A stretch of 28,266 bases of DNA. It comes from Candidatus Scybalocola fimicaballi (GTDB taxonomy: Bacteria > Bacteroidota > Bacteroidia > Bacteroidales > Paludibacteraceae). The DNA is taken from the NCBI GenBank assembly GCA_002317115.1, contig DCIP01000181.1, forward strand, positions 1-28,266, written 5' to 3'. The notes beneath the pieces were generated by a model that did not search any database, was not told where the DNA came from, and saw only the letters and a list, made by a program, of their open reading frames with translations. Shown one piece after another: positions 3,316 through 26,217 of the stretch. The position numbers and the translations under genes were made by a program. The first letter of the stretch is position 1. The number at the start of each line of letters is the position of its first letter.

Positions 3316-4131
3316 CTATTTTATCACTATTCCTTTTTTGCTGACTCCGTAGCCTGCCCAGTAACCCATTCCACCTCTTATATTTCCGTTTAGATTACGG
3401 TTGTATGAGAATAATGGGTTTCTTGAGAATGTAGAGAGTTTGTCGTACTCTTTCCAGAATTCATACATGCCTTTATCCATCGACACCACATTGACGATGA
3501 CTCTCTGTCCTGCCTTAAAATATTTGTCTCCGGCAAGACCATGGTTTATGGTCAAGGTGTTCCCATAATCCACTAACGACATTCGAGAGAGTGTGCGGCG
3601 TGTGTCCATGCTGTCAACTAAAATAAATGCTGCATGGTAATTATCGCTTTCTGCTGGATCAAGTGTCGCTTTAATAAGATATTGGTTGTCCTCGACGCGT
3701 TCTGTGGTTAAACTGACATTGTTTGGCGATTCTGGTATTGTGCAGTCGGCTTCACATCTCATCTCATCCCATTCAACAGCCAGATGGTAGGTTTTGCCTG
3801 CTTTGCCTCTCATTCTTCCTGTTGTATAGATAAACGGTGGAAAATAATCGTGGTTGGTTTTGCCGGTAAGCACGACGCTTTGCTCTCCGTCGCTTATGGT
3901 TACTTTGGCATATTTTCCCACATATTCAACCAGGGAGTCAGACTCAAATGAGAATCTTGAGTTGGAATTGATTGGCAGTGTTCGTGATACGATCACGATT
4001 GGAAACTCACCGTCGTCGATCCAACCCTCCACAACAATTTCGCTCTCTATCTCATCTGTTCCGTCGTCGGAGCAAGATAGAAAGGGGAGGAATATGCTTA
4101 AACTTATGATTAATTTCTTGAATATGTTCAT
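3316..4131 (-). CDS. DUF4249 outer-membrane lipoprotein
   Basis: The 271-residue protein has a lipoprotein signal ending at Cys20 (FLSC), followed by SDDGTDE, the acidic patch that in Bacteroidota marks lipoproteins for the cell surface. The mature start (IVVEGWIDDGEFPIVIVSRTLP, res 32-53) and the length match DUF4249, a beta-rich family nearly always encoded next to a TonB-dependent receptor. Here the receptor ends 4 bp upstream. By analogy with SusD-type partners, DUF4249 proteins are thought to work with the receptor in capture or uptake, but no substrate is known. It is the last gene of the operon, and no clear terminator follows it before the next transcription unit. Confidence 0.85.
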   Translation of the reverse strand: MNIFKKLIISLSIFLPFLSCSDDGTDEIESEIVVEGWIDDGEFPIVIVSRTLPINSNSRFSFESDSLVEYVGKYAKVTISDGEQSVVLTGKTNHDYFPPFIYTTGRMRGKAGKTYHLAVEWDEMRCEADCTIPESPNNVSLTTERVEDNQYLIKATLDPAESDNYHAAFILVDSMDTRRTLSRMSLVDYGNTLTINHGLAGDKYFKAGQRVIVNVVSMDKGMYEFWKEYDKLSTFSRNPLFSYNRNLNGNIRGGMGYWAGYGVSKKGIVIK

Positions 4132-4135
4132 TTTA

Positions 4136-6253
4136 TCAGAATTTAACGAAGAAACTTAAGGATGGAAGCATCTTGATGAAGAATGACAATGGACCGTAGA
4201 TATAATCGCTTTCGGCATTCTCACTCGTTGTCTTTTTCAAGCGATACATCAAAACGTTTTTCCTCATCAACACGTTATAAAACGACAGATTCAATCCTAT
4301 GGTGTTCTCATCCGTCTTCTTGAAATAATAGTTCGACGACAAATCCAATCTCATATACGAAGGCAATCTGTTTCCGTTATACTTGCCGTAAGTGTTCAGT
4401 AGTTTTCCCTCCATCACGAATATTGATTGAGGCGCCGTGTATGGTTTGCCTGATGCGAATACGTAGTTGGCTCCTACGTCCCATTTCTTCTTTTTGTAGG
4501 TCAACACGGCATTAAGCTGATGTGGTCTGTCCTGACTCGACGGATATTTGCCTGTCATCCAAGTGTCTTTGTCGGAATTAAATTCTCGCATTGATCGGCT
4601 GTAGCCATAGCTTATCCAGCCTACGAGGTTTCCTTTGACTCTCTGGATCATTATATTCACGCCGTAATTCTCTCCAGTGCCTGTAAGCAGCAAATTGTCA
4701 AGTATATACTCGTCTGTGATCAACGACATCAGATCGCCTGAATACTCAATCTGATTAGCAAGTCGTCTATAATACGAGGAGATTTGAAGTTTGTATTCTC
4801 CGTCGTAGAATCTTTGTTCGTAGTCTAATCCCAATCCACGCATTCGCTGTGGTTTTCTTTTCTCGTTAGCGATGAGCCAAAACTCCGTTGGCAATCCCAT
4901 ATTGGAGAATCCTGTCTGGAAGAGATGCTGGTGTTGCTGGCCGATACTGAATGCCATTGAGAATGGAGCGTTGGAATTTTGTGCAAACTCACGTAGAAAG
5001 GAAACGGATGGATCCAACGATGGGAATAGAGTAGCGTCGGTTCCATACAAAGAACCACGGATGTGAGTCTTCAATTTGATATCCAAAGGAAGAAAGAATG
5101 TTTGATATGCGTGGATAGTGCCAAGCACTCCGCTTTCACGGTCTGATCCTTCAGTTGTGATTTCCCTTCCGTCAAGAATCTCAGGCTTTTGTGGCTGAAC
5201 ATCATAATACGAAACGGATGCGTTCAATCCGAATTTACGTTTGTTGAATTTGAATTCATATCCGTAATCGTTTATATGAGACGGAAGTTTTGCGTGCAGA
5301 TTATCCTCTTTGTATGTAAGGTCATTATCGTAGTGAGACAGGTGGATGTCGTTGCTTATTGTGGCTTTCCCACATTTGCTTTCCAGTTTTGCCAGCGACA
5401 TATAGTTCTTCCATTTGACATCGATATCATTGCCGACGCCGTTGACTGAAAGAGCGGCCTTGTCTCTGCCTAAATATCCGATCAAAGAGAGTTTGTGATT
5501 ATCGTTAAGTCTCACTCCTAATGAGACGTTGTAGTCGCCAAATGTATAGTTGAAATGAGAACCGTCGATCTCCAACAAATTTTTATAAAACAGGTTAAGA
5601 TAGGCCTGACGTGCGGAAACAATCAATTCTGTTCTTTTGCCATTGAGTTTGAATGTACCCTGTGAACTCATTGGACCTATTGTCAATTCACCGCCAATGT
5701 CGACGGTAGTGTCTTGGCTTATAGGATCTTTTGTCTCGTGTAAGCTGATCATATTCATTTCAGATCCGATGATGTCGGAAGATGTAAGCACGTAAGGATT
5801 CTTGTGAAGTGCGATATCTGAAAAATGGCCAGGGTTAAACACAGAGAAAAGACCTAGGAAATGGCTTGGGTTGTAGATTCTTACTTTGTCAATAAGTATG
5901 GCGCTATGTGATGTCTCTCCACCTTCGACGTGGAAACCCGCGTCGTATTCCGAATTTACGCTCACGCTTGGCATCGACTGCATCACACGTAACGGGTCTG
6001 TGTTGCCCATCACCTGAGGCATGATATCAATCAGTTTCTTATCCACACTGACGGAGCCAACCTCGTTGCTTTTGACATACGTGTTCAATTTTTTGCCGAC
6101 CACGACATAATCGTCAAGGTCGTATTGCATCAACGAGTCTGCATCCTCTGTCGTTTTGCAATACGAGTTAAGTGGAAGTAAAAAAAAGAGTGCAGACAAG
6201 ATTGCTCTTGTCTGTACTCCGTTTGTCTTTACAAATTCGTATTTAGAATTCAT
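4136..6253 (-). CDS. TonB-dependent outer-membrane receptor paired with DUF4249
   Basis: The 705-residue protein has a signal peptide (res 1-32), a TonB-box-like stretch (LDDYVVVGK, 46-54) and a plug domain (about 56-165, with FHVEGGETSHSAILIDKVRIYNP). A beta-barrel region follows and ends in the aromatic FFVKF expected at a barrel C-terminus. Such receptors import large ligands across the outer membrane using energy from TonB-ExbBD. It lacks the N-terminal carboxypeptidase-regulatory-like domain that many Bacteroidota receptors carry, and it is shorter than SusC proteins. Its ATG abuts the TAA of the upstream lipoprotein (TAAATG), so translation is probably coupled, and DUF4249 follows after 4 bp. 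The ligand is unknown; nothing ties it to the pectinase block except adjacency. Confidence 0.88.
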   Translation of the reverse strand: MNSKYEFVKTNGVQTRAILSALFFLLPLNSYCKTTEDADSLMQYDLDDYVVVGKKLNTYVKSNEVGSVSVDKKLIDIMPQVMGNTDPLRVMQSMPSVSVNSEYDAGFHVEGGETSHSAILIDKVRIYNPSHFLGLFSVFNPGHFSDIALHKNPYVLTSSDIIGSEMNMISLHETKDPISQDTTVDIGGELTIGPMSSQGTFKLNGKRTELIVSARQAYLNLFYKNLLEIDGSHFNYTFGDYNVSLGVRLNDNHKLSLIGYLGRDKAALSVNGVGNDIDVKWKNYMSLAKLESKCGKATISNDIHLSHYDNDLTYKEDNLHAKLPSHINDYGYEFKFNKRKFGLNASVSYYDVQPQKPEILDGREITTEGSDRESGVLGTIHAYQTFFLPLDIKLKTHIRGSLYGTDATLFPSLDPSVSFLREFAQNSNAPFSMAFSIGQQHQHLFQTGFSNMGLPTEFWLIANEKRKPQRMRGLGLDYEQRFYDGEYKLQISSYYRRLANQIEYSGDLMSLITDEYILDNLLLTGTGENYGVNIMIQRVKGNLVGWISYGYSRSMREFNSDKDTWMTGKYPSSQDRPHQLNAVLTYKKKKWDVGANYVFASGKPYTAPQSIFVMEGKLLNTYGKYNGNRLPSYMRLDLSSNYYFKKTDENTIGLNLSFYNVLMRKNVLMYRLKKTTSENAESDYIYGPLSFFIKMLPSLSFFVKF

Positions 6254-13873: not shown

Positions 13874-13981
13874 ATTTGTTGTGGCAAATTGAATTGAAAC
13901 ACGAATTGTCATAAATTGGCCACGAATTTTACAGAAATTGGATAGCTTCCCCCGTCTTGCGTGTGTAGGAAAATCAACGTA

Positions 13982-14090
13982 AAAGTTCGTTTTATGGAAA
14001 GAACTTTTGGTGAAAATTGATAAAGTTCGTTTTATAGAAAGAACTTTTGGTAAAAATTGAGAAAGTTCGTTTTATGGAAAGAACTTTTTG
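13982..14090. repeat. Three 40-bp tandem repeats, each a 7-bp hairpin
   Basis: Units begin at 13982, 14022 and 14062 with a 40-bp period; the third is cut short after its hairpin. Each holds AAAGTTC, a 12-nt loop close to GTTTTATGGAAA, and GAACTTT. The first two differ at only a few positions. They lie about 130 bp before the defence-operon promoter. There are no unique spacers, so this is not a CRISPR array. Tandem operator sites or a small dispersed repeat are both possible. Confidence 0.85.
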
Positions 14091-14215
14091 CAAAGTTTTA
14101 GAAAAATATAAATGAGATAGAAATAATATCCGTTAAAGACGGTAGAGATGAGGAGATTTTTGAGGGGGAATGAGAAAAATATTTAAAATGGTGCCATACA
14201 ACACTTGTAATATTT

Positions 14216-14245
14216 TTGTTTCAAATCATTCATTGACTAATTTTG
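14216..14245 (+). promoter_or_regulatory. Consensus Bacteroidota promoter of the defence operon leader
   Basis: TTG (14216-14218), a 19-bp spacer and TAATTTTG (14238-14245) match the Bacteroidota -33/-7 pattern (TTG and TAnnTTTG) at near-ideal spacing. Transcription should start near 14252, about 350 nt before the helicase ATG. It is the best promoter match I found in the window. Confidence 0.7.
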
Positions 14246-14251
14246 CACCGC

Positions 14252-14545
14252 TTTTTGCGTTATTCCGCTTAAAGTGACATACATATTGAAAGCGTTTACT
14301 TACGCTTGTTCTTGATTTGTTAAACTTCCCATTTATCAAAATCCATTAAGAACGAGAATTAGTAAATGCTCATGCTTTGGTATTGTCAGCCAATGTTGTG
14401 CGTACTCACTTCGTGGGAGCGCACTTCGTTGGCATCATATACCTTTATGCGTGGGTGTTCGACTTAGTTCATCTAAATGGATAAGGCTTGGGAAGGCCGA
14501 ACAAATCTGGATGAACGGTAATAAGTTGATTCCCACGCTTTTTTT
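14252..14545 (+). ncRNA. Candidate structured leader RNA or small RNA ending in an intrinsic terminator
   Basis: Four hairpins are visible in order. The first is AAGCGT/ACGCTT (14290-14307). The second is GTTCTT/AAGAAC (14308-14353). The third is a 45-nt rod at 14389-14433 with stems of 7, 5 and 5 bp (GCCAATG, GTGCG, CTCAC and partners) and a UUC loop. The fourth is a long element at 14449-14538 built from GCGTGGG/CCCACGC, TCGACTTA/TAAGTTGA, GTTCATC/GATGAAC and an inner GGCTT/AGGCC capped by a GGGA (GNRA) loop. Seven T residues follow (14539-14545). The 5' end is inferred from the promoter. It could be a separate small RNA, or a leader that controls read-through into the defence genes. I do not recognise an Rfam family. 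Confidence 0.55.
14449..14545 (+). terminator. Intrinsic terminator upstream of the defence operon
   Basis: A GCGTGGG/CCCACGC closing stem (14449-14455 with 14532-14538) is followed directly by TTTTTTT. It lies between the only clear promoter and the helicase start, so downstream expression needs read-through or antitermination. TTCATC (14468-14473) can pair with GATGAA inside this element (14510-14515) or with a second GATGAA beyond it (14561-14566). Confidence 0.65.
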
Positions 14546-14566
14546 GTTTTAACTAAACCTGATGAA

Positions 14567-14601
14567 GGGAGTCTGTCGGGAAAAGGATAGATAGGACTCC
14601 T
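14567..14601 (+). promoter_or_regulatory. Hairpin abutting the helicase start codon
   Basis: GGGAGTC (14567-14573) pairs with GACTCCT (14595-14601), 7 bp with one G-U, and the ATG at 14602 follows immediately. The loop contains the only purine-rich stretch (AAAAGGA) that might aid ribosome binding. It could limit initiation. Confidence 0.5.
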
Positions 14602-17600
14602 ATGGCAAGTAATTTCTTTAATAACCAACAGAATACACTATTTGATAAGTTTAAGGGTATTTCCTCTGGAATGGGGAGCAATTTTTACCGTTTCCTTGCT
14701 GTTGTAGGCTTTTTCCGATCTTCAGGATATTTTTCTCTACGCAAAGAATTAAAAGATGTCAAGGATTTAAGAATTCTTGTCGGAATCAATATTGATGATA
14801 TTTGGAAAAATCACGATAAAACGAAAATATTCACAGGCGATTCTGAAAAAGCAAAATCCATTTACAATGATCAATTTATAGAAGATATAGCCACTTCTAA
14901 TTATTCAAAAGAGGTGGAAGATGGAATACTTCAGATGATAGACGACTTGAAGTCTGGAAAATTGAAGATGCGAATTCATCCTTCGAAGAAACTACATGCA
15001 AAGTTCTATCTCTGCTTGCCTGAAAACCATACTGAACATACCGATGGATGGGTGATTATGGGTTCGTCTAATATTTCTAAATCTGGACTTGGACTTACAG
15101 ATCCTCCAACTTATGAATTGAATATTGCATTGAAGGATTACGACGATGTGCATTATTGCAAAGAGGAATTTGATCGTCTTTGGGGAGAAGGTGAAGATTT
15201 TACTGTAGATGACATAAATCTCGACGATACTCATCTTGGCTATCAACCAACTCCTTTTGAAATCTATATGAAGACTTTGATAGATGTATTTGGCGATCAA
15301 GCAGAAGATGATTTCATTATGAATCTTCCTCCTAGTGTCATGGATCTAAAATATCAAAAGGATGCTGTGATAGAAGGTTATCAGATGATTATGAAGCATA
15401 ATGGTGTTATTCTTGCCGATGTCGTTGGTCTTGGCAAAACATTGATTGCTACAATGATAGCCAAACGATTTATAGAATCGAATGGAAGGAACACCAGAAT
15501 ACTTGTGGTTTATCCACCTGCATTGAAAAAGAACTGGGAGGATACATTTGCTCTTTTCGACATAGAGAAAAAAGCAGACTTTGTTTCTAATGGAAGTCTT
15601 GATTACGTATTGGAGGAGAAAAATCGATACAGAAGCAAAGGAGAATATGATATGGTCATTGTTGACGAGGCTCATGGATTCCGAAACGATGGCACTGGAA
15701 AATATGACTCTTTGCAGAAAATTTGCAAAGCTCCTCGTCAGAACAAAGGTTTTGTAAAGGATTCGAGAAAGAAAATCTTGCTTCTTTCTGCTACTCCATT
15801 GAACAACCGTCCAGAGGATATATTAAATCAACTTCTTTTATTTCAGAATTCTGCTCAATGTACTATAGAGGGTGTTGAAAATCTTAAGGTTGAATTCTCA
15901 AAGCATATCAAAAAGTATAAGAATTTGATGGCTGAAAGAAAAACAGGTAAAAGAGATGTCACAACGGATGTCGATGAAATGTATGAAGATATCCGAAAAA
16001 GGATAATAGATAAAGTGACGATTCGTCGTACTCGTTTCAATATTCTTAATTGTCCTGAGTATAAAAATGATTTGGATAAGCAAGGTATAAAATTTCCTAC
16101 TATTCAAAAACCTAATTCTCTTGAATATAGAATGGATGAGGATACATCAGCGAGATTTTATGTCACGATGAGCGATCTTACAAACCATTTGAATTATGCC
16201 AGATATCGTGCAATCGAATTTCTAATTCCTGAACATAAAAAGAAATTTAAGAGCGCTGATCATATTGCCAAATCTTTGGCGAATATCACTAAAATTCACA
16301 TGGTTAAGCGACTTGAAAGTAGTTTCCACGCTTTCAAGATTTCATTGGCAAATCTTCTCCGATTTACGGAAAATATGGAGAAAATGTTTGATGAAGACAA
16401 AATCCTTATTATGCCCGACTTGAACATTAATGATAAACTTGAAAATGGCATGACATTCGATGAAATCATCGAAGAAGCTATGAATAAAGGTTATGACGAA
16501 GAGAATAGCGTCTTTTGTGCTGCTGATTTTGACCCTGAGTTTAAGAAGATGCTTGATGATGATCTGAAAGAACTAAAAAGATTGAATGAAGATTGGGCAA
16601 AAGAGAATGACGATCAGAAATTCGACCGATTCAAAGAGTGTTTTGAAAATGAACTCTTCTCGAAAGAAATAAATCCAACTGGAAAACTTGTGTTGTTCTC
16701 AGAAAGCAAGGACACTCTTGACTATTTGTATGATAGGTTTACAAATGAGTTAGGAAGGAACGATGTGTTGAACGTTTCTTCTGGAAACAGAGGCTCTTTG
16801 GAAAAAACAATTAGAAAGAATTTCGATGCCAATCTGCCTGTGTCGGAACAGGAGAATAGATACAATATCATTATCTCTACCGATGTCCTTGCTGAAGGAG
16901 TGAATCTTCATAGGTCTAATGTGATTGTCAATTATGACGAACCTTGGAATTCCACTAAATTGATGCAAAGAATTGGTCGTGTCAACCGTATCGGATCTGT
17001 AGCAGACAGCATTGTCAATTATATGTTTTATCCTTCAAAACCAGGAGATAAGATTGCTGGATTGTATCAGAATGCTTTGATTAAATTACAGGGATTCCAC
17101 TCTGCATTTGGAGAGGATGGACAAATCTTTTCAAGAGAGGAAATTGTTAAAGAGTTTGAGATTTTCAATGCAGATATTTCCGATGAGATCGATAAAAAGA
17201 TTGAACTGCTACGAGAGGTTAGAAATTTTAGAAAAGACAACAAGAAGTGGTTTGAGAAGATAAAGCATCTATCTGTTAGAAGTCGTGTCGGACGATCTTC
17301 TGAATTTGGAAAATCAGGCGAGACTCTTGTTTATGCATCTTCAAGCGTAAAGTCGGAATTTATTCGCGTCGATGCTTCTGGAAAAGCAAACAGTATTGAT
17401 TTCCTTGATGCTGTCGCTATTCTAAAAGCCGATCCTGAAGAGAAGGCCTTGGATATAAGGCTTTCTCCAAATCATTACGATCATGTGAATTCTGCTATAA
17501 AAACATTCACGAAAAGAACGAATGCTGCGAAAGTGGAAAGTGAAATGGCTTTTATGGTTAATCCCGATAAAGTGGCTCAGCAAGCTATTAACCTTGTAAA

Positions 17601-17856
17601 ACAGTTCGCAAGAGAAAACAAGATTACCAATAGTGAAAGAGATGAATTGATAAAGTTCTTGCAAAATGGTGTATACCAGCATTTGCAAAGAGAACTTGTG
17701 GCACTAGGGAAGAGTCTTACGTCTTTATCCCAAACTGAAATCAAAGAGAAAATTGATGAATTGATAAATGATTACGTGACTCCTGATTATGGAGATGGTG
17801 TGAAGGAGATTGAAGAGACAGAACCTGTTGTCGTATTGTCGGAGTCGTTTGTTTAA
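14602..17856 (+). CDS. PLD-domain SNF2-family helicase of an Hma-like defence system
   Basis: The 1084-residue protein fuses a phospholipase-D-like N-terminus with an SF2/SNF2-type helicase. The PLD part (about 1-195) shows HAK (132-134) and GSSN (154-157), one half-site of the kind that dimerises to form a nuclease. The helicase has motif I GLGKT (276-280), motif II DEAH (355-358), motif III SAT (396-398), motif V STDVLAEGVNL (759-769) and motif VI QRIGRVNRIG (789-798). Residues after about 830 are helical and unassigned. It is expected to translocate on DNA and might cut it. The gene opens an operon with an adenine methylase 17 bp downstream and a Z1 ATPase, the helicase-methylase-ATPase layout of Hma-type anti-phage systems. 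The name is by analogy. Confidence 0.88.
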   Translation: MASNFFNNQQNTLFDKFKGISSGMGSNFYRFLAVVGFFRSSGYFSLRKELKDVKDLRILVGINIDDIWKNHDKTKIFTGDSEKAKSIYNDQFIEDIATSNYSKEVEDGILQMIDDLKSGKLKMRIHPSKKLHAKFYLCLPENHTEHTDGWVIMGSSNISKSGLGLTDPPTYELNIALKDYDDVHYCKEEFDRLWGEGEDFTVDDINLDDTHLGYQPTPFEIYMKTLIDVFGDQAEDDFIMNLPPSVMDLKYQKDAVIEGYQMIMKHNGVILADVVGLGKTLIATMIAKRFIESNGRNTRILVVYPPALKKNWEDTFALFDIEKKADFVSNGSLDYVLEEKNRYRSKGEYDMVIVDEAHGFRNDGTGKYDSLQKICKAPRQNKGFVKDSRKKILLLSATPLNNRPEDILNQLLLFQNSAQCTIEGVENLKVEFSKHIKKYKNLMAERKTGKRDVTTDVDEMYEDIRKRIIDKVTIRRTRFNILNCPEYKNDLDKQGIKFPTIQKPNSLEYRMDEDTSARFYVTMSDLTNHLNYARYRAIEFLIPEHKKKFKSADHIAKSLANITKIHMVKRLESSFHAFKISLANLLRFTENMEKMFDEDKILIMPDLNINDKLENGMTFDEIIEEAMNKGYDEENSVFCAADFDPEFKKMLDDDLKELKRLNEDWAKENDDQKFDRFKECFENELFSKEINPTGKLVLFSESKDTLDYLYDRFTNELGRNDVLNVSSGNRGSLEKTIRKNFDANLPVSEQENRYNIIISTDVLAEGVNLHRSNVIVNYDEPWNSTKLMQRIGRVNRIGSVADSIVNYMFYPSKPGDKIAGLYQNALIKLQGFHSAFGEDGQIFSREEIVKEFEIFNADISDEIDKKIELLREVRNFRKDNKKWFEKIKHLSVRSRVGRSSEFGKSGETLVYASSSVKSEFIRVDASGKANSIDFLDAVAILKADPEEKALDIRLSPNHYDHVNSAIKTFTKRTNAAKVESEMAFMVNPDKVAQQAINLVKQFARENKITNSERDELIKFLQNGVYQHLQRELVALGKSLTSLSQTEIKEKIDELINDYVTPDYGDGVKEIEETEPVVVLSESFV

Positions 17857-17873
17857 TAGATAGTATTAGAACC

Positions 17874-20800
17874 ATGGAAAAGAAAGATTTACGAGATATA
17901 TTCAAAAGACCATTTGCTGTAGGAAATTGGAATAAAATCCTTGTTGACGTGTTTCATGCTATCGATGTCTACGCGGAGCCTCAACAGTTTACTTTTAATG
18001 ATGATAATGCTAAATACGTTGGCTATTATAATGGCCGTATATCTACCCCTAATGGAGACACTGTAGGCCTTTTCTCTTATTCGTCTATTTCTCAAGTTCG
18101 TCGGAAAAGAGTGTCATTGCGTAATCTTGTCTCAAAACTTGTAAATCCGAAATATGGTTCATTTGATGCCGTATTGGTGGCATACTACGACGATAAGGAG
18201 TGGCGAATTTCCTATATCTGCGATTTAAAGGATAATATTACGTCTGCAAAAAGATTTTCATTTTTGGTAGGCGACTCTTTTTCTGAACATAACACTGCAG
18301 TAAGTCGATTAAGTGAAATAAAGAAAGGATTCGAACTTTCTGATTTATATGAAGCCTTCTCTGTGGAGAGACTCACAAAAGACTTTTTCAACGAATATAC
18401 TGCAATTTATAAGGATTTCTGCAGTAGAGCAACTGACTCTAAATATTTTGATTTTGACAATTTTGATGACAAGCAGATTAGAGATTATGTAAAACTACTT
18501 CTTGGACGAATTCTTTTCCTTTGTTTTGTACAGAAAAAGGGATGGATGAATGGCGATAAACAGTTTTTGAGAAATATCTTTAATGCATATTGTAGTCAAT
18601 TGAAATCAGGAGAGGAATTTCGATTTCTCGACAATGTGCTTGAAAAAATCTTTTTTGAATGCTTGAATAACGAGCATTCTGAGCTATTTCAAACAATAGT
18701 GAAAGGGTATGGCGATAATGGTAAGATTGATGTGCCATTCTTAAATGGAGGATTGTTTGAATGCAAAGAACTTGATGTGCCAAGGTCAGTTTTTGGAAAA
18801 GATTTATGGCAAAATCTGTTTGACCTTCTTGATAAGTATAATTTCACTATCGACGAGAATGATCCAACTGATGCGGAGGTGGGAATCGACCCTGAAATGC
18901 TTGGAAAAATTTTTGAGAGTCAACTTGAAGACAACAAAGACAAAGGTGCATTTTATACACCCAAAGAGATTGTATCGTACATGTGCAAAGAGTCTTTGAT
19001 TGCCTATTTGGAAAAGAGTGGAGTAGACAAAGAAGAGTTGCGAGAGTATGTTCAGCACCATGAGTTGAATAAGAATTGGAATAAAGAGACTACGGAAGAA
19101 ATACTGACTCTTTTGAAAGAGATAAAAGTATGTGATCCGGCAATTGGTTCTGGAGCCTTTCCAATGGGTATGTTGAGAGAGATTCTTGATTGCAGATTAG
19201 CAATAGAATCCTATGATGATATAGCTAAAATAAAGAGAGAGATTATACAAACCTCTATTTATGGAGTTGATATAGAGGCAGGAGCTGTGGATATTGCCAG
19301 ATTAAGATTCTGGCTTTCTATTGTAGTGGATTCTGATAAAGCCGAACCATTGCCTAATCTTGACTATAAGATTATGCAGGGAAATTCATTGTTGGAGAGT
19401 TATGAAGGAATTGACTTGAGCGGAATGACTCACGATGAACAACTTAAGAAGAGTGCAAAAGAAAAGAATGCAAGACAATATCAGCTAAGTCTGACTTTTA
19501 ATGAAGAAGATGCCTTGAAAAACATTCAGGATGCATTGCGTATTTATTACAGCACCGACAATCATGACAAAAAGGCTGAACTCAGAGATTCTATCAATAG
19601 CGATGTCAAGACCTATATCATTAATCTAAAGGGAGGCACTGACGACATTAAGCAAAAGATGAAGGATCTTCCAATTCCAAACAATCAGTTTTTCCTTTGG
19701 CACATCTACTTTAAGGATGTATTTGATAAGGGAGGTTTTGATGTTGTGATTGGAAATCCGCCGTATAATGAATTGAGAGATCTTTCTAAGGAAGCACAGG
19801 AGGCATACAAGAAATCTAATTACCATAAATACGCAAAAGGTGGTAGAATAAATATGTTTCAATACTTTTATCCTCTCGGTACTGACATGTGTAATCAAGA
19901 TGGAATAATATGCTTGATTACGCAGAACTCTCTACTTGCAGAGGACAGTGCCTTAGAAAACAGAAAATTATTATTTGAAAAAACATCTATTCTCTCCGTA
20001 GATTCATATCCGGAACGAGACGACAAGAATAAAAGAGTCTTTGAATCTGCCAAAATGAGTGTATGTTTTTGTGTTTTAAGAAAAAACACAGCTTATCAAA
20101 CAGTTCCTATAAATATTACTATTTGGAATGAAAGACAAATGCTGCACTCGAGAAAATTAAGAATTACTAAAACAGAAATCATTGATGTTTTCCAAGAAGA
20201 CTTAACTTTACCCATTTGCGATCAAACGCAATTGAATATTCTTGTTAAGATGAGGAACAAGTCTGATGATTCAGTGTATAACATTAGTGCAGGGGAAATA
20301 GACATGACTAAATACAAGAGTAATTTCTCGTACGAGCCGTCCTCTGATAAAACCCGCATAATAACAGGAGCTCAGGTATTAAGGTATCATATAACAGACA
20401 CTCCCTCTCAAGGTGGAGTTAAATATGTTCCATCATCATGTTTATCATTTAGTAATAATCGACTTCTTGAAGTCAATGCTCCACGACTTGTAATGCAAAG
20501 AATTACAGGAGTAGATTCTAAGATAAGGTTAATTGCGACTTTACTTCCCAAGGGAATGTGTTGTGCAAACTCTACGAACTACATATCCTCACTAAGAAAT
20601 ACGTCGCCACTAAAAGTCCTCTTAGCCATATTGAATTCAACTGCCGCTAATTATATCTTCAAGGCGACAAGTACAAATACAAACGTGACAAGCAAAGAGA
20701 TAAGTAAAATACCTATTCCCTCTATGAATGAGGATGAAAAGGAAAAACTTTCAGAAATAGTTGACCGCATCCTCTCAGCCAAGAAACTTGATCCACTCGC

Positions 20801-20900
20801 CGACACAACAGCAGAAGAGCGTGAAATAGATCGACTTGTTTATGAGTTGTATGGATTGACCGAAGAAGAGATAAAGATAGTGGAAGGAAAAAACGAATAA
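17874..20900 (+). CDS. Eco57I-like N6-adenine DNA methylase of the defence operon
   Basis: The 1008-residue protein is a class I SAM-dependent adenine methylase. A conserved-looking N-terminal domain (about 20-185) precedes GAFYTP (358-363), motif I VCDPAIGSGAFP (419-430), motif II GVDIE (464-468) and motif IV NPPY (628-631, in FDVVIGNPPYNEL). A C-terminal TaqI-like specificity region follows (about 800-960) and ends with RLVYELYGLTEEE. It should methylate adenine at a specific site in host DNA and so mark self. Many relatives are fused type IIG enzymes, but I see no PD-(D/E)XK nuclease in the first 200 residues, so cutting is probably done by a partner such as the PLD-helicase. Length and domain order are normal for the family. 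Confidence 0.9.
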   Translation: MEKKDLRDIFKRPFAVGNWNKILVDVFHAIDVYAEPQQFTFNDDNAKYVGYYNGRISTPNGDTVGLFSYSSISQVRRKRVSLRNLVSKLVNPKYGSFDAVLVAYYDDKEWRISYICDLKDNITSAKRFSFLVGDSFSEHNTAVSRLSEIKKGFELSDLYEAFSVERLTKDFFNEYTAIYKDFCSRATDSKYFDFDNFDDKQIRDYVKLLLGRILFLCFVQKKGWMNGDKQFLRNIFNAYCSQLKSGEEFRFLDNVLEKIFFECLNNEHSELFQTIVKGYGDNGKIDVPFLNGGLFECKELDVPRSVFGKDLWQNLFDLLDKYNFTIDENDPTDAEVGIDPEMLGKIFESQLEDNKDKGAFYTPKEIVSYMCKESLIAYLEKSGVDKEELREYVQHHELNKNWNKETTEEILTLLKEIKVCDPAIGSGAFPMGMLREILDCRLAIESYDDIAKIKREIIQTSIYGVDIEAGAVDIARLRFWLSIVVDSDKAEPLPNLDYKIMQGNSLLESYEGIDLSGMTHDEQLKKSAKEKNARQYQLSLTFNEEDALKNIQDALRIYYSTDNHDKKAELRDSINSDVKTYIINLKGGTDDIKQKMKDLPIPNNQFFLWHIYFKDVFDKGGFDVVIGNPPYNELRDLSKEAQEAYKKSNYHKYAKGGRINMFQYFYPLGTDMCNQDGIICLITQNSLLAEDSALENRKLLFEKTSILSVDSYPERDDKNKRVFESAKMSVCFCVLRKNTAYQTVPINITIWNERQMLHSRKLRITKTEIIDVFQEDLTLPICDQTQLNILVKMRNKSDDSVYNISAGEIDMTKYKSNFSYEPSSDKTRIITGAQVLRYHITDTPSQGGVKYVPSSCLSFSNNRLLEVNAPRLVMQRITGVDSKIRLIATLLPKGMCCANSTNYISSLRNTSPLKVLLAILNSTAANYIFKATSTNTNVTSKEISKIPIPSMNEDEKEKLSEIVDRILSAKKLDPLADTTAEEREIDRLVYELYGLTEEEIKIVEGKNE

Positions 20901-20913
20901 AAATTTGATAATT

Positions 20914-23886
20914 ATGACAGAACTTGAGCAAATAATCAATACGATAAAAACTCTACAGGCAATGAATTTGACTGTGGATGAGAAACTTTTGCAAAGAAAG
21001 GCAGATCTTGAAGCAGAGGAGAAGGCAGCAGCGTCTTCTTCCACTCCGATTTACGACCGACTTATCAAAGAGGCAGAAAAGAAGTTTGGAAGTGTGAGTG
21101 ATGAAAAGAAGAGATGCGTGGAGCAGACAGTCGCAAAACTGCTTGAAGATGGTCCGAGATCAAAGGAACCAGGATTGTTGCTTGGTCGCATCCAGTGTGG
21201 TAAGACGGACACTTTTGAGAATGTGATTGGTCTTGCTTTTGACAAAGGTGTGGATGTTGCTGTCGTTTTGACTAATGGCACAGTAGCACTTGGGGAGCAG
21301 ACTTACAAGAGATTTGAGTACGACTACCGATTCTTTAAGGAGGAATCTGGGGCAAAGAATGTGATAGAAATCTACAATATCCATGATTTTAAGGGATCGT
21401 TGAAAGAGGCAGTTGTAGATAGAAAAAAGGTCGTATTTGTCTGCATGAAGCAGGTGGCAAATATGCGTAGGTTGACTGAGTTGTTCGTAAGAAAAAGTTC
21501 ATTTCTGAAAGACAAAAACGTGCTTATTGTCGATGATGAGGCTGATTTTGCAAGTAGAAACTATGTAAATTCTCCAGTTGAAATATGCAACGATGAAGAT
21601 GGTAATCCAATTTTGCAGGAGGCATTCAAGCAATTGGCTGTGATTTCGGATCAGATTGACCGCTTCCGACATGAACTTTCAAATTGTCATTATCTTCAAG
21701 TGACAGCCACCCCTTATTCTTTGTTCTTGCAACCTGGTGGCGACTTGAATCTACAGGGTAATATGGTTTATTCGTTTAAACCAAGATTCGTTAGTCAGGT
21801 ACCAGTCCATAGCCGATATATAGGAGGCGATGTGTATTACGTTCAATCAAAGAATCCTGATTCTATGTATTCTCATTTGTTTACATCAGTTCCGCAGAAA
21901 TGTATGGATGTGATGAAACGTAGGTATAATGGATATCTTAATGAGGATAGCAGAACTAATTCTTCAAACTTGTATGAACTGTCGTATGCTCTTGTGTCGT
22001 ATTTTATGGCAACAGCGATTAGAGTGTTGCAGACAAGGAACGAAAGATACAAGACCTGTGCTGTTTTTCATGTTGATATCGCTAAGGATATTCATTCTTG
22101 GCAGAAAGATTTGATAGACGCATTGTTGGAGGACATAGAATCATATTTTGCAGGAGACCTAGAAAGTGAGCCAATAGAGAGTATGATATCGCAAGCCTAC
22201 ACATCATTTGGGGAGTCAAATAAAAAAGGTAATAATGAAGGTCTAATCGACGTCGTATTTCCATCATTAGACGAGATCAAGGAGGTTGTCAATCAGATTT
22301 TCGTAAAGAATGACTATTCCATTTATGTGGTGAATTCCGACAAGGATCTTGATGATTGTGCTCAGATGAATAAGGAGACAGGTCAGTTTGATCTTCAGAC
22401 TAAGGCAACCATATTCATCGGAGGAAACATTTTGAATAGAGGTATTACAATAGACAATATGATTTGTTTCTTCTACGGAAGAGATACAAACCAACAGGAT
22501 ACAGTGATGCAGCACGCTCGTTTCTATGGAGCAAGAAGCAAAGAAGACATGGCAGTGACACGTCTTCACACAACTAACCTTATCTATAATATCCTTACAA
22601 GGATGCATGAACTTGATGAGGATTTGCGAACTCAATTGATGAGTTGTGCAGATGGAGAGGTTCCAAGTTCTATATTTGTAGGATATGATCAGGATTTTAA
22701 GCCATGTGCGTCATCTAAGATTGCAGTATCGAAGACTATTCCACTAAGACCAGGAAGTCGTATCTTTCCAATAGGTTTCATGGCAGATTTCAAGACTTAT
22801 GTCAAGCCATTTAATGATGAAATTAGGAGTATCTTGTCTCCATACGGGACGGTCGATTATGCAGAGATTCCAGTAGAAGATGTTCGAGATATTTTGTACA
22901 ATATTAGACAAACATACCTTTATGGAGAAATGTTTGAAAATGAAATGTACTCTGAAAACATGTCTGAATTGCAATGTGCTTTGGATTATGCGACGAAAGA
23001 ATCTGGAGGAAAGATAAAGGTTAAGCTTTATGAGAATCGTGAGATTAACAGAGTACGTTTGGACGGAGGATTCGAGGATTCGCCAGAGAGTGGTAATGTT
23101 ATAACTTCGGCTAAAGCTGAATCGAAAGAGATGCCAGTATTGGTTCTATTGCATGAAAAAGGAGAAAAAAATATAGATCCTACGACTGGAAAGAACAAAG
23201 GATGGAATGGAGGAGATTTCTATTGGCCTGTATTGTATTTGCAAGAGTCATTGAAACCATCGATTTTCGCTTTGGACACAAATTCAAACGGCAATGTATT
23301 TGCTATCGACTATAGTGAATTCTACAAAGAAATTGGTGATGAAGAATGTCTAAGAATCTCTTATCCTAAAGAATTGTGTTCCGCATTTGGAGAAGAAGGA
23401 CAAACTTATGAAGATGGAGAAAAAACATATTCTGTTCATTTGACTCCTACAAATGCGTCAAGGTATGTCTATAGAGAAGGTGAAATGTCATTTGCGTTGA
23501 ATTATAATGTAGATCTGGATAAAAGCGAAGATAATGGAATCTTTTCTTATTGTGGAGGTCAATTTCCATTTGAGCTTCGTGATTTCAGGTATCTGCTTGT
23601 AAAGAAGCGTATTCAGGGAATTGTGGAAATTATGCTGCTTGAATTGTACGATCAGGATTCATGGGAGATCATTTCACATCAAAACTATGATTCGTATGGT
23701 GATCTTATCGGCTATGCGACAAATGACACAAGTAGAGGTAAGACTGTGCTTCTAAACACTGGAGATGTGGTTAGACCATCAAGATCCAGAGATCCCCAGA
23801 AGAGAGTCTGTCAATGGGAAATCATCTACAAGATAAAGAAGGTTGTGATGTACAGACAAAAAGTTCCAGTAAGAAAGGTTGAGTAA
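20914..23886 (+). CDS. Z1-domain P-loop ATPase of the defence operon
   Basis: I use the ATG at 20914, 13 bp after the methylase, because the slightly longer frame begins with TTG. Numbering here is for that longer frame (subtract 3). Motifs are Walker A GRIQCGKT (94-101), Walker B LIVDDEADFAS (207-217), VTATPYSLF (266-274), GGNILNRGITIDN and QHARFYGAR (a helicase-like motif VI). This pattern matches the Z1 domain, a helicase-related ATPase found with MutL/MORC-type and methylase defence operons. About 300 further residues at the C-terminus are unassigned. It probably couples ATP use to sensing or remodelling of foreign DNA. The DUF45 gene overlaps its stop by one base (TAATG), so translation is likely coupled. 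Confidence 0.88.
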   Translation: MTELEQIINTIKTLQAMNLTVDEKLLQRKADLEAEEKAAASSSTPIYDRLIKEAEKKFGSVSDEKKRCVEQTVAKLLEDGPRSKEPGLLLGRIQCGKTDTFENVIGLAFDKGVDVAVVLTNGTVALGEQTYKRFEYDYRFFKEESGAKNVIEIYNIHDFKGSLKEAVVDRKKVVFVCMKQVANMRRLTELFVRKSSFLKDKNVLIVDDEADFASRNYVNSPVEICNDEDGNPILQEAFKQLAVISDQIDRFRHELSNCHYLQVTATPYSLFLQPGGDLNLQGNMVYSFKPRFVSQVPVHSRYIGGDVYYVQSKNPDSMYSHLFTSVPQKCMDVMKRRYNGYLNEDSRTNSSNLYELSYALVSYFMATAIRVLQTRNERYKTCAVFHVDIAKDIHSWQKDLIDALLEDIESYFAGDLESEPIESMISQAYTSFGESNKKGNNEGLIDVVFPSLDEIKEVVNQIFVKNDYSIYVVNSDKDLDDCAQMNKETGQFDLQTKATIFIGGNILNRGITIDNMICFFYGRDTNQQDTVMQHARFYGARSKEDMAVTRLHTTNLIYNILTRMHELDEDLRTQLMSCADGEVPSSIFVGYDQDFKPCASSKIAVSKTIPLRPGSRIFPIGFMADFKTYVKPFNDEIRSILSPYGTVDYAEIPVEDVRDILYNIRQTYLYGEMFENEMYSENMSELQCALDYATKESGGKIKVKLYENREINRVRLDGGFEDSPESGNVITSAKAESKEMPVLVLLHEKGEKNIDPTTGKNKGWNGGDFYWPVLYLQESLKPSIFALDTNSNGNVFAIDYSEFYKEIGDEECLRISYPKELCSAFGEEGQTYEDGEKTYSVHLTPTNASRYVYREGEMSFALNYNVDLDKSEDNGIFSYCGGQFPFELRDFRYLLVKKRIQGIVEIMLLELYDQDSWEIISHQNYDSYGDLIGYATNDTSRGKTVLLNTGDVVRPSRSRDPQKRVCQWEIIYKIKKVVMYRQKVPVRKVE

Positions 23887-24464
23887 TGATAGAAGGTGTT
23901 AATATAAATATCATCCGTAAGGATGTAAAATCTTTATCTATGAGAACTACAAAGGAGGGAGGCGTAAATGTCTCCGCTCCTTTGTCTGCTACACAAAAAG
24001 AGATCGATGACTTCATTTCAAAACATGAGTCATGGATTGAAAAGAATGTGCCAAAGACATTGCAAAGAGTAGAAGCAAAAAATAATTTCTATAGTCAGTT
24101 ACCGTTGCTTACTCATCGTCAACAAAACGACGCAAGACGCAAACTATCAGCCATAATACTTCCTTTGATAGAAAAGTATTCAAAGATGATGAATGTCACA
24201 CCAGGATCAATCGTGTATAGTGCAACAAAATCTCAATGGGGAAGATGTACGGATAAGACACATAATTTGCAGTTTAGCTATTATCTTTTGCTATTACCTG
24301 AATGGTGTATTGAGCATGTTGTTGTGCATGAGTTGGCTCATATCATAGAACCAAATCATAGTCCTGCATTTTATGCTGTTGTAGATAAATACTATTCCCG
24401 TAGAAAAGAAGCGATGGCAGAGACTTCCAGATTGAGTGGGAATATTGACGAAGAGGAAATGTAA
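23886..24464 (+). CDS. YgjP-like (DUF45) zinc metallopeptidase in the defence operon
   Basis: The 192-residue protein has the WGRC turn (118-121), the zinc motif HELAH (148-152) and NHSP (157-160), which together define the YgjP/DUF45 family. His148, His152 and His158 should bind zinc and Glu149 should act as the base. The family is often found beside type I restriction genes. Its substrate is not established. The start overlaps the Z1 stop codon by one base (TAATG), which ties it to the operon. It is not part of the basic helicase-methylase-ATPase set, so it may be an accessory regulator that trims or removes a component. Confidence 0.9.
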   Translation: MIEGVNINIIRKDVKSLSMRTTKEGGVNVSAPLSATQKEIDDFISKHESWIEKNVPKTLQRVEAKNNFYSQLPLLTHRQQNDARRKLSAIILPLIEKYSKMMNVTPGSIVYSATKSQWGRCTDKTHNLQFSYYLLLLPEWCIEHVVVHELAHIIEPNHSPAFYAVVDKYYSRRKEAMAETSRLSGNIDEEEM

Positions 24465-24755: not shown

Positions 24756-25190
24756 ATAAAACAGAGCCATAATTCAGCCTGGTGTTTATTTTCTCTCATA
24801 CCAGATAAAAAGCGTCGTTATTGCTTTTCTAATTGGCACAAAATCCCACGTCGACGTGATTTGTATGGAACGTCTAATGATATGAGTTATTCATCTCCAC
24901 AAAGGCTCCATTTCCCAGTTTAATGGGAATCCCATGGCCCTTAAATCTATATAGGGAAATTCAATAAACAACCAACGAAGTTTAGTAGTCATATCGTTGT
25001 CTGGAGAAATCCCGTCAAGAAAATATTTGATGATACAGATGTTGTAATAAATACGCTGTGGGTCTGATTGTATCGTTATCCATGCAATAATGAAACGAGT
25101 TTGGAGGAACTTGAAAATGACTTGTTAAATGGAATTAAATTTGATATAAACTTATACACTCATAAAAATAAAACGCCTCGCACGATTTGA
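24756..25190 (+). pseudogene. Possible decayed reading frame after the defence operon
   Basis: This 531-bp gap has no intact gene. One plus-strand frame runs from inside the 91-residue gene to TGA at 25188 with only three internal stops (24921, 24942, 25065). It reads like protein in places (SSPQRLHFPV, FSSHIVVWRNPVKKIFDD, NETSLEELENDLLNGIKF). Random AT-rich sequence of this length would be expected to hold more stops. It may be the remains of a further operon gene. I do not recognise the family. Confidence 0.35.
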
Positions 25191-25231
25191 GCATTGTAAA
25201 GAGGCTTGGCGGGTTCTTGTACTGCTCAAAT
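25175..25231. other. Interleaved inverted repeats (pseudoknot-like) after the toxin pair
   Basis: GCCTC (25175-25179) pairs with GAGGC (25201-25205). ATTTGAGCA (25185-25193) pairs with TGCTCAAAT (25223-25231). The arms alternate A-B-A'-B', the order of an H-type pseudoknot. On the minus strand the GCCTC/GAGGC stem is followed by GTTTTATTTTT, so it may be the terminator of the DUF3990 pair, with the 9-bp stem as a competitor. Confidence 0.45.
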
Positions 25232-25285: not shown

Positions 25286-25756
25286 TCAAAAACTTCCATC
25301 ATAATAAGCCCTCGTTTGAACATAGCTGGGCTCGTAGTATGCACTGGAGTTATAATTGTCTATTGCATCACAAATAGGAGAAGCATAAATGTTTTGAATC
25401 GTTTGCACAAGATCAAAACCTTGTTTTGATACGGAATCAATCAGTCTGGCATAGACTTTTCCCATTTGAGTTTCTGACGGAACCTTATCTGTATATTCAA
25501 TGTCAACTTGAGTTATATCAACATTTCCGTTTGCAAGTTTATATTCTTCTTTCCAATCGCTTACAACTTGTTCAGGATTAAGGCAATGGTTGGTTTCTGC
25601 AATAGAAAGTTGACGAGCAAGTCCTTCGCTACCTATATGTTCTACCACATAACGGTTACGCTGTTTGATGTTTCTAGCTACACGTTCTATCATATAGCAT
25701 ACAAAGTAGAGATCGTTGAATGTAATGTCTTCGTCTGGAAAATATATGTTTTTCAT
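25286..25756 (-). CDS. Partner protein of DUF3990, putative antitoxin
   Basis: The 156-residue soluble protein has an acidic, helical N-terminal half (FVCYMIERVARNIKQRNRYVVEHIG) and a Tyr/Ser-rich end (YNSSAYYEPSYVQTRAYYDGSF). Its ATG overlaps the stop of the DUF3990 gene (ATGA), a hallmark of coupled toxin-antitoxin or enzyme-partner pairs. I recognise it as the kind of companion often encoded beside DUF3990 but cannot give a family name. It probably binds or restrains the DUF3990 protein. It is encoded second, whereas many antitoxins come first. Confidence 0.7.
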   Translation of the reverse strand: MKNIYFPDEDITFNDLYFVCYMIERVARNIKQRNRYVVEHIGSEGLARQLSIAETNHCLNPEQVVSDWKEEYKLANGNVDITQVDIEYTDKVPSETQMGKVYARLIDSVSKQGFDLVQTIQNIYASPICDAIDNYNSSAYYEPSYVQTRAYYDGSF

Positions 25757-26217
25757 CGTTTGTCTGGAATTTCGTAGTGTTCAATATATTTCAACGTAGC
25801 TAATGCTTTGTCGTTGCAAAATATTATTTGATGTGTAGGGTGTTTGAATTTTGCTAAAGCCCAAAATACATCTCGAGTTATTCGATTGGCAAGGAAATCT
25901 TCTACATAGTCCCATACTTCATCATCTGCCATTGGACCTTCGACAATGTCATATTGATGAGCCTCTCCATGTCGACAAGCAGCAACAAAGTCAAGCCATT
26001 CATCTGTCATTTCGGGAAAATGTTTGATATTGAGTTTGTCGTTTGCTTCATATTCATATACGCATATGATATGTGGCTTACGTTTAGATACTGCCCAACG
26101 TTTAGCCTGTTTTTCTATATTTGTACAATAGAATCCATAGCCGAAATCCTTTGTGTATCCAACAATTCGAATTTCAGGCTTCATTACTATAGTATCTGTT
26201 CCATGATAGAGTTTCAT
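25753..26217 (-). CDS. DUF3990 ADP-ribosyltransferase-like toxin
   Basis: The 154-residue protein begins LYHGTD (res 3-8), followed by DFGYGFYCT (24-32), ADDEVWDYV and HQIIF (129-133). This is the DUF3990 pattern, related to the H-Y-[E/Q] class of ADP-ribosyltransferases in which His5 and Tyr30 would hold NAD. Such proteins are usually one half of a two-gene toxin-antitoxin or phage-defence pair and may modify a host target. The target is unknown. The gene overlaps the partner by 4 bp and has a predicted promoter at 26284-26291. The location next to the helicase-methylase operon suits a defence island. Confidence 0.82.
   Translation of the reverse strand: MKLYHGTDTIVMKPEIRIVGYTKDFGYGFYCTNIEKQAKRWAVSKRKPHIICVYEYEANDKLNIKHFPEMTDEWLDFVAACRHGEAHQYDIVEGPMADDEVWDYVEDFLANRITRDVFWALAKFKHPTHQIIFCNDKALATLKYIEHYEIPDKR

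Follow-up and report, generated by a model that had tools for sequence, protein, structure and literature searches.

The 28,266-nt stretch of contig DCIP01000181.1 from Candidatus Scybalocola fimicaballi (assembly GCA_002317115.1), here called the window, contains a long structured leader in front of a defence operon whose first gene encodes a helicase. Comparative analysis suggests that this leader is probably a cis-acting regulatory RNA. It belongs to a pseudoknotted, attenuator-like family with relatives in Bacteroidales, in which strand exchange would make a terminator conditional. As judged from covariation, three helices connect the loops of its two main hairpins, P2 and PT, the latter being the terminator. 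The family is large and apparently uncatalogued, and its members are leader RNAs of gut-type bacteria.

Family membership and loop-loop helices

Two covariance models, R1 for the P2 block (block A) and R2 for the terminator block (block B), were built from 26 sequences. The window was kept out of the seeds, as were L012, L023, L024 and the repeated copies L002, L005, L007-L010 and L026. RNAalifold, applied to block A by itself, returned only a 5-bp hairpin; the P2 helices were drawn manually and their pairs then counted. In the window, R1 finds 14291-14370 (33.5 bits, E 4.5e-7) and R2 finds 14449-14544 (35.6 bits, E 1.4e-6, or E 1.4e-4 over the whole genome). The two blocks lie on the same strand, in order, with a linker within about 130 nt, and the next-best places in the window for the models have E values of 0.12 and 0.53. 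Unlike the covariance models, the family profiles used with nhmmer on sequence only missed the copy in the window at E 0.1. For the family-wide counts, 213 block-B matches were reduced to 179 with block A and then to 162 (both scores at least 15, unique core).

Mutual information was computed over 163 leaders with no structure supplied. The top pairs joined the P2 loop with the terminator loop, and seven positions of one helix, N7, were 94-99% canonical. The other two helices are a kissing loop (KL) and PK2. Across the family, N7 pairs are 96.4% canonical, against 55.4% when the partners are swapped among sequences, a control that keeps the letters and ignores the tree. The corresponding values are 99.6% and 88.7% for KL, and 75.7% and 43.1% for PK2 (four column pairs). 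Among the local helices, the own and swapped values are 87.5 and 77.5% for P2b, 94.3 and 81.9% for P3, and 97.0 and 94.4% for the inner PT helix. At least 119 stretches were gathered by a fixed letter pattern that includes the 5' inner strand of PT and the KL partner strand (KL'), and conservation at these strands is therefore inflated. In the 53 leaders outside the pattern fetch, N7 remains at 95.0 versus 53.8%, with 3-5 pair types per position, and KL at 99.4 versus 83.9%; PK2 is weaker, at 60.8 versus 38.5%.

All three helices are kept in the window, as 8+7+7 bp in its own letters. Written as DNA, they are GATTTGTT/AACAAATC (N7), CTTCCCA/TGGGAAG (KL) and ATCCATT/AATGGAT (PK2). The KL of the window is altered on both strands relative to the usual CTTCGCA/TGCGAAG, and it coincides exactly with the 7-nt P3 loop that the fold of the window leader shows.

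The same structure was found upstream of related helicases. Helicase relatives at E 1e-40 or better occur in 42 of 250 genomes of the taxonomic family, and 30 helicase loci, the window's own included, were tested for the leader. Both blocks lie upstream of the helicase in seven of the eight closest non-self homologues (L206-L213, 56-59% identity); L213 has no leader block. For the window and these seven homologues, which hold six different kissing-loop sequences, the loop-loop chain score averages 59.6, against 25.5 for swapped and 24.7 for shuffled partners. The highest control scores were 47 among 400 shuffles and 55 among 56 swaps, the latter because some homologues are close to one another. 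Covariation beside related operons, which an earlier note on this DNA had proposed as a check, is thus present in these eight loci. In the 21 remoter helicase loci, some of which have partial genes or little upstream sequence, R1 had no match, and R2 gave weak matches at L219 (24.7 bits, E 0.0037) and L230 (22 bits, E 0.016) and nothing beyond these up to E 1. Inspected by eye, L219 shows the three loop-loop helices in a compact version of the leader, a form to which the two models give poor scores.

Promoter, fold and terminator of the window leader

The features of the leader and of the operon are listed in the table. The leader starts behind a TTTG/TAnnTTTG pair, which we take to be the Bacteroidota promoter type. 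A TAnnTTTG motif stands 25-150 nt 5' of P2 in 124 of the 162 leaders, compared with 7.8% in shuffles, and where it is found its median distance from P2 is 68 nt. The RNA 14250-14605 folds at -120.7 kcal/mol (z -7.0), and none of 100 dinucleotide shuffles was as good. Taken singly, P2 (14286-14373, z -6.0), P4 (14380-14442, z -5.4) and the terminator (14449-14545, z -6.0) are strong, whereas the 5' hairpin (14252-14286, z -0.6) and a hairpin at the start codon (14555-14601, z -1.6) are not; there are therefore three strong hairpins and two that are weak alone. P4 lies in the linker between the conserved blocks, which ranges from 31 to 130 nt across the 163 leaders.

The outer stem of PT is GCGUGGG/CCCACGC (14449-14455/14532-14538), followed by seven T (14539-14545), 56 nt before the ATG at 14602. 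A G+C-rich hairpin with an immediate U-run upstream of the gene is seen in the window and along the seed alignments. The inner stem includes 14467-14473/14510-14516. PT was not listed by a simple terminator scan of the window, probably because the scan accepts loops of 3-8 nt only.

These results bear out several claims of the earlier note. The letters and the fold confirm that the helicase is preceded by a promoter, by a leader that folds strongly and by an intrinsic terminator, and the GC-rich stem with seven T at this distance from the ATG is as claimed. TTCATC (14468-14473) does pair with GATGAA at 14510-14515, and this pairing is part of the conserved inner terminator helix; a second GATGAA, which the note had proposed as the alternative partner in a switch, is present as letters at 14561-14566. 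The conserved pairing that was found past the terminator is a different one, between GATTCCC (14528-14534) and GGGAGTC (14567-14573).

Table. Features of the leader RNA and of the defence operon in the window
Feature	Position	Strand	Pairing or details	Basis
Promoter	14215-14245	+	TTTG 14215-14218, 19-nt spacer, TAATTTTG 14238-14245	letters read
P1, small 5' hairpin	14250-14275	+	weak alone	fold, z -0.6 over 14252-14286
P0 5' strand, AAAGCGU	14289-14295	+	can pair ACGCUUU 14535-14541, rivalling the terminator	letters
P2 hairpin (block A)	14291-14370	+		R1 model match; fold z -6.0
P2 sub-helices	14291-14370	+	P2a 14291-14300/14361-14370; P2b 14305-14316/14345-14356; P3 14321-14324/14332-14335	
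N7 5' strand, GAUUUGUU	14314-14321	+	pairs 14500-14507 (AACAAAUC), 8 bp	
KL, CUUCCCA	14325-14331	+	pairs 14489-14495 (UGGGAAG), 7 bp	
PK2, AUCCAUU	14341-14347	+	pairs 14476-14482 (AAUGGAU), 7 bp	
P4, variable hairpin between conserved blocks	14380-14442	+		fold z -5.4
PT, intrinsic terminator hairpin (block B)	14449-14545	+		R2 model match; fold z -6.0
Terminator-loop partners	14476-14507	+	PK2' 14476-14482, KL' 14489-14495, N7' 14500-14507	
T, GAUUCCC, terminator 3' strand	14528-14534	+	pairs T' 14567-14573	comparison
P6, post-terminator element	14558-14580	+	CCUGA 14558-14562/UCGGG 14576-14580, T' GGGAGUC 14567-14573 in loop	
PLD + SNF2 helicase, first operon gene	14602-17856	+	PADLOC best C3a139 HKD+Snf2 2e-43, HmaA 4.6e-33	Pfam, PADLOC
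Eco57I-type DNA methyltransferase, type IIG-like	17874-20900	+		Pfam, PADLOC
YgjP-like metallopeptidase	23886-24464	+		Pfam

Competing folds and the proposed switch

Further pairings lead past the terminator. The strand T is often GAYUCCC in the family, and its partner T', often GGGAGUC, lies between the terminator and the start codon; the window has GATTCCC and GGGAGTC. The T/T' pairing scores 15.44 in the leaders' own combinations and 12.60 when swapped (standard deviation 0.16; 161 of 163 leaders). In the window, T' can alternatively pair with GGACUCC (14594-14600), which adjoins the AUG. The P0 flank, 5' of P2, pairs with the letters after the U-run and scores modestly higher in its own combinations (11.54) than when swapped (10.51; standard deviation 0.165; 147 of 163 leaders). 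GCAAC of the P2 3' strand and GUUGC of the PT 5' strand are 99.5% canonical, although the AAC is unpaired in the proposed P2. The consensus of the P2 3' strand, AACAAAGCAAC, resembles the terminator 3' strand, GACGAGCAAC, and the A-rich GCG ahead of P2 complements the terminator end together with the U-run. When nested folds were calculated for 128 of the 163 leaders, with energies that leave out the pseudoknot, the P0-forced fold beat the PT-forced fold in 124, by a median of 11.3 kcal/mol. Two folds therefore compete, and they are able to share the loop-loop helices.

The leader position, the promoter motif and the covarying T/T' pairing make a cis-acting leader likely, and the conserved stem with its U-run makes termination at PT likely. 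The leader probably governs whether the downstream genes are transcribed, and from these pairings we infer that it switches by strand exchange. In the OFF fold, P2 and PT would form and the U-run would be where RNA polymerase stops. The ON fold would have the P2 3' strand paired to the terminator 5' strand, with the 5' A-rich GCG segment (P0) on the terminator ACGC and the U-run. Once polymerase has read through, T' would capture T and so, close to the start codon, keep the terminator from closing. Both folds could accommodate the loop-loop helices, which might act as a hinge. In the window, the leader would thereby set the transcription level of the defence operon.

Several observations weigh against this reading. 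The promoter motif was not found in 38 of the 162 leaders. T/T' has just 4-5 bp in 45 of the 161 leaders and is therefore not universal. The PT outer stem is 96.3% canonical against 96.0% swapped; it hardly varies, and that helix therefore gives no covariation support. The strands GCAAC/GUUGC and the P0 core are too conserved for a covariation test. In the window itself, the P0 flank pairing is not seen, the GCAAC/GUUGC-type complement is short by eye, and the nested fold favours PT by 4.2 kcal/mol, which makes it one of four leaders among the 128 that prefer PT. The omission of the pseudoknot from the fold energies and the tree-blind controls count on the same side. The genes behind the leaders are too varied to point to a ligand and name no pathway, which would be unusual for a metabolite riboswitch.

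A more specific version of the conditional terminator can be put forward only tentatively. The family might be a signal-sensing switch class of Bacteroidales, in which a kissing pseudoknot of three helices locks the terminator loop to an upstream hairpin and strand exchange resembles that of a four-way junction. One signal might then control, in each genome, a scattered accessory regulon of surface, stress and restriction/defence genes, and copy-private loops might avoid cross-talk. If this is true, defence, surface and stress genes would be tied to one cue.

Genes behind the leaders and alternative explanations

In 130 of the 162 leaders, 151 of which had enough sequence, the 300 nt downstream contain the start of a same-strand open reading frame (ORF) of 80 aa or more. 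The median distance is 70 nt, and the middle half spans 53-81 nt. The RNA therefore sits as a leader. Of 142 first genes, 140 were scanned, in two batches of 70. Among the matches listed, which cover the first 25 families out of 49 in one batch and out of 37 in the other, LRR_5 was found in 10, BACON in 5, LytTR in at least 2 and NusG in at least 2 of the first genes, and TerD, TerB, HSP70, protein kinase, DegT, EcoRI methylase and HaeIII endonuclease in at least one each. Six loci (L041, L071, L086, L097, L131 and L184) have similar short helix-turn-helix (HTH)-like proteins of about 70 aa directly behind their leaders. Small proteins starting ...EELQSRREFFKKAAKGALPI..., precursor-peptide-like by eye, follow the leaders of L085, L136, L179, L182 and L192.

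The earlier note had considered an RNA that works with the defence proteins, and had named covarying stems restricted to the vicinity of this operon as support. A defence-specific RNA was rejected, since relatives precede many other genes. The same RNA stands before very diverse genes, which argues for a cis-acting leader. What stands of the note's interpretation is a folded leader behind a promoter, in which the terminator is conserved and pairings compete, and which precedes homologous helicase operons with covarying stems.

Four other explanations were considered. Firstly, the RNA might act on RNA polymerase, like the put or EAR elements, or recruit a NusG paralogue such as UpxY, and so cause processive antitermination of the operon. 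The RNA is large and conserved, and NusG is the family of at least 2 of the 140 first genes. Same-strand gene runs were compared in loci that have 4.5 kb or more downstream: those behind leaders average 2.86 genes against 2.39 for other starts in the same loci (36 each), with runs of three or more genes at 56 versus 33% and single genes at 28 versus 50%; these counts are crude and raw, and are partly cut by contig ends. The comparison rests on small numbers and is not decisive. However, single genes still make up 28% of the leader runs, and the structure contains its own terminator and a partner near the start codon. We regard this explanation as rather unlikely.

Secondly, a stand-alone small RNA with its own promoter and terminator might only incidentally precede genes. 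It would suit the promoter motif, the terminator and the compact fold. However, the covarying T/T' pairing continues past the terminator towards the start codon, and an ORF starts within 300 nt in most leaders. The loop letters also vary among copies, including between the window and L013, a copy in the same genome, so that no shared trans target is visible. A small RNA of this kind is quite improbable, and the earlier note's suggestion of one working with the defence proteins is likewise unlikely in view of the pairing beyond the terminator.

Thirdly, the leader might be a promoter-bearing, non-coding repeat of a mobile or selfish kind, as genomes hold several copies at different places and copies occur on plasmids and on one viral contig. 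Nevertheless, its position is tied to the following start codon in most leaders, and the loop-loop helices show compensatory changes, which points to selection on the RNA structure in place and leaves a selfish repeat very unlikely. Finally, leader-peptide attenuation, with a ribosome on a short ORF choosing the fold, seems very unlikely as judged from the most common AUG. In 144 of the 163 leaders this AUG stands at the 3' end of P2a, but neither the length nor the stop of its ORF is conserved (5th-95th percentile, 4 to 84 codons), and the linker length has no frame preference (61/53/49).

Distribution of the family

The spread of the preferred conditional-terminator leader was surveyed at several levels. 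Within the genus, a DNA search of nine genomes, among them that of the window, gave matches in five. G000, G003, G004 and G008 share about 40 nt in P2, and the end of the terminator follows some 250 nt beyond; the match in G002 is to a different short part, and this genome was not counted as a relative. A search with one relative as query, in which no more than two candidates were scored in each genome, gave matches in 116 of the 250 genomes of the taxonomic family, spread over 17 of 33 genera. The window's own genome has four places with R2 at E < 0.005, plus an antisense echo of the best one. In the order, R2 matched at E 0.001 in 49 of 295 genomes (own included), with up to ten matches per genome, and in a phylum draw of 296 genomes the only match was in the window's own; these counts are lower bounds because the filters were strict. 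Among 80 rows of matches to the fixed letter pattern, the named genomes are Bacteroidales (Prevotella, Xylanibacter, Paraprevotella, Phocaeicola, Parabacteroides, Muribaculaceae, Paludibacteraceae and others), apart from four Firmicutes-type names, which, with one row without a name, were taken for binning errors.

All or part of the leader is also found on mobile DNA, in one viral contig, three plasmid records and two phage records. The plasmid records and the phage records, which are unannotated, were obtained with the typical member L028 as DNA query. A copy in the commensal Phocaeicola dorei CL06T03C03 lies on plasmid pBdorCL06T03-4 (L235), with the leader at 4013-4251 and the gene at 4318. 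The window leader as DNA query had no match in phages and plasmids, and an exact search for a window-like core in viral contigs gave none.

Surroundings of the defence operon

Several other features lie near the leader or the operon. The only Rfam match above cut-off in the window is an abiF RNA (RF03085, 42.7 bits) at 25176-25213 on the minus strand, 10 kb from the leader. A decayed frame (24880-25173) comes next on that strand, and its last open piece presumably resembles the C-terminus of an Abi_2/AbiF protein. The RNA and the frame may possibly be a relic beside the defence operon. A gene pair at 25286-26217 on the minus strand matches PADLOC PDC-M10A (DUF3990) and PDC-M10B and is a candidate defence pair adjoining the operon. 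Upstream of the promoter, at 13981-14089 (plus strand), there are three near-identical direct repeats with the core AAAGTTCGTTTTATGGAAAGAACTTTT and inverted arms AAAGTTC..GAACTTT, which could be the site of a regulator.

Comparison with known systems

A search of Rfam 15, which the earlier note had suggested, found no family above the gathering cut-off over the leader in the window or in 20 + 20 loci (L031 being in both sets). At a lax threshold, the window and five relatives gave only sub-threshold matches to unrelated families. In the literature, as searched by title and start of abstract, with subscription papers and preprints thinly covered, no description of this leader family was found.

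The above-cut-off Rfam matches in the scanned relative loci were DUF805b (L030, L031 and L041) and one tRNA. The DUF805b RNA (RF02914, clan CL00115) is likewise a cis-regulatory element near the start codon, but unlike the leader it is only 35 nt long. In L030 and L031 it lies between the leader's terminator and the gene, in place of the GGGAGUC element, and in L041 it lies past the first gene, which encodes the short HTH-like protein. By eye, L202-L204 have a much diverged leader just upstream of DUF805b, and L195, L196, L197 and L200 have DUF805b without such a leader upstream. Thus the two are separable modules, and DUF805b can form the last part of a larger leader. The window, its post-terminator region included, has no match to RF02914; its genome has three DUF805b copies elsewhere.

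The JUMPstart/ops, EAR (epsC) and put RNAs are leaders that raise the read-through of operons. JUMPstart and epsC have entries in Rfam (PMC2864571). The models of these two had no match in any locus scanned. In the UpxY leaders of Bacteroides capsule loci, premature termination is overcome. The likeness of the present family to these leaders is one of description; NusG-like proteins account for at least 2 of the 140 first genes here.

Bacteroidales are a dominant gut bacterial order, and most of their regulatory RNAs are, to our knowledge, still poorly understood. With strong covariation, as many as ten copies in a genome and no Rfam 15 match in the loci scanned, this family would be a substantial regulatory layer. 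Purine and corrinoid riboswitches also combine a structured leader, an intrinsic terminator and a kissing loop; no Rfam riboswitch model matched in the loci scanned. We know of no other terminator whose loop is tied through three helices to a hairpin upstream of it. The present family differs from the purine and corrinoid riboswitches in that the leader's own terminator loop appears to make the long-range contacts, in three helices, and it would add a terminator architecture in which the terminator loop is knotted to an upstream hairpin.
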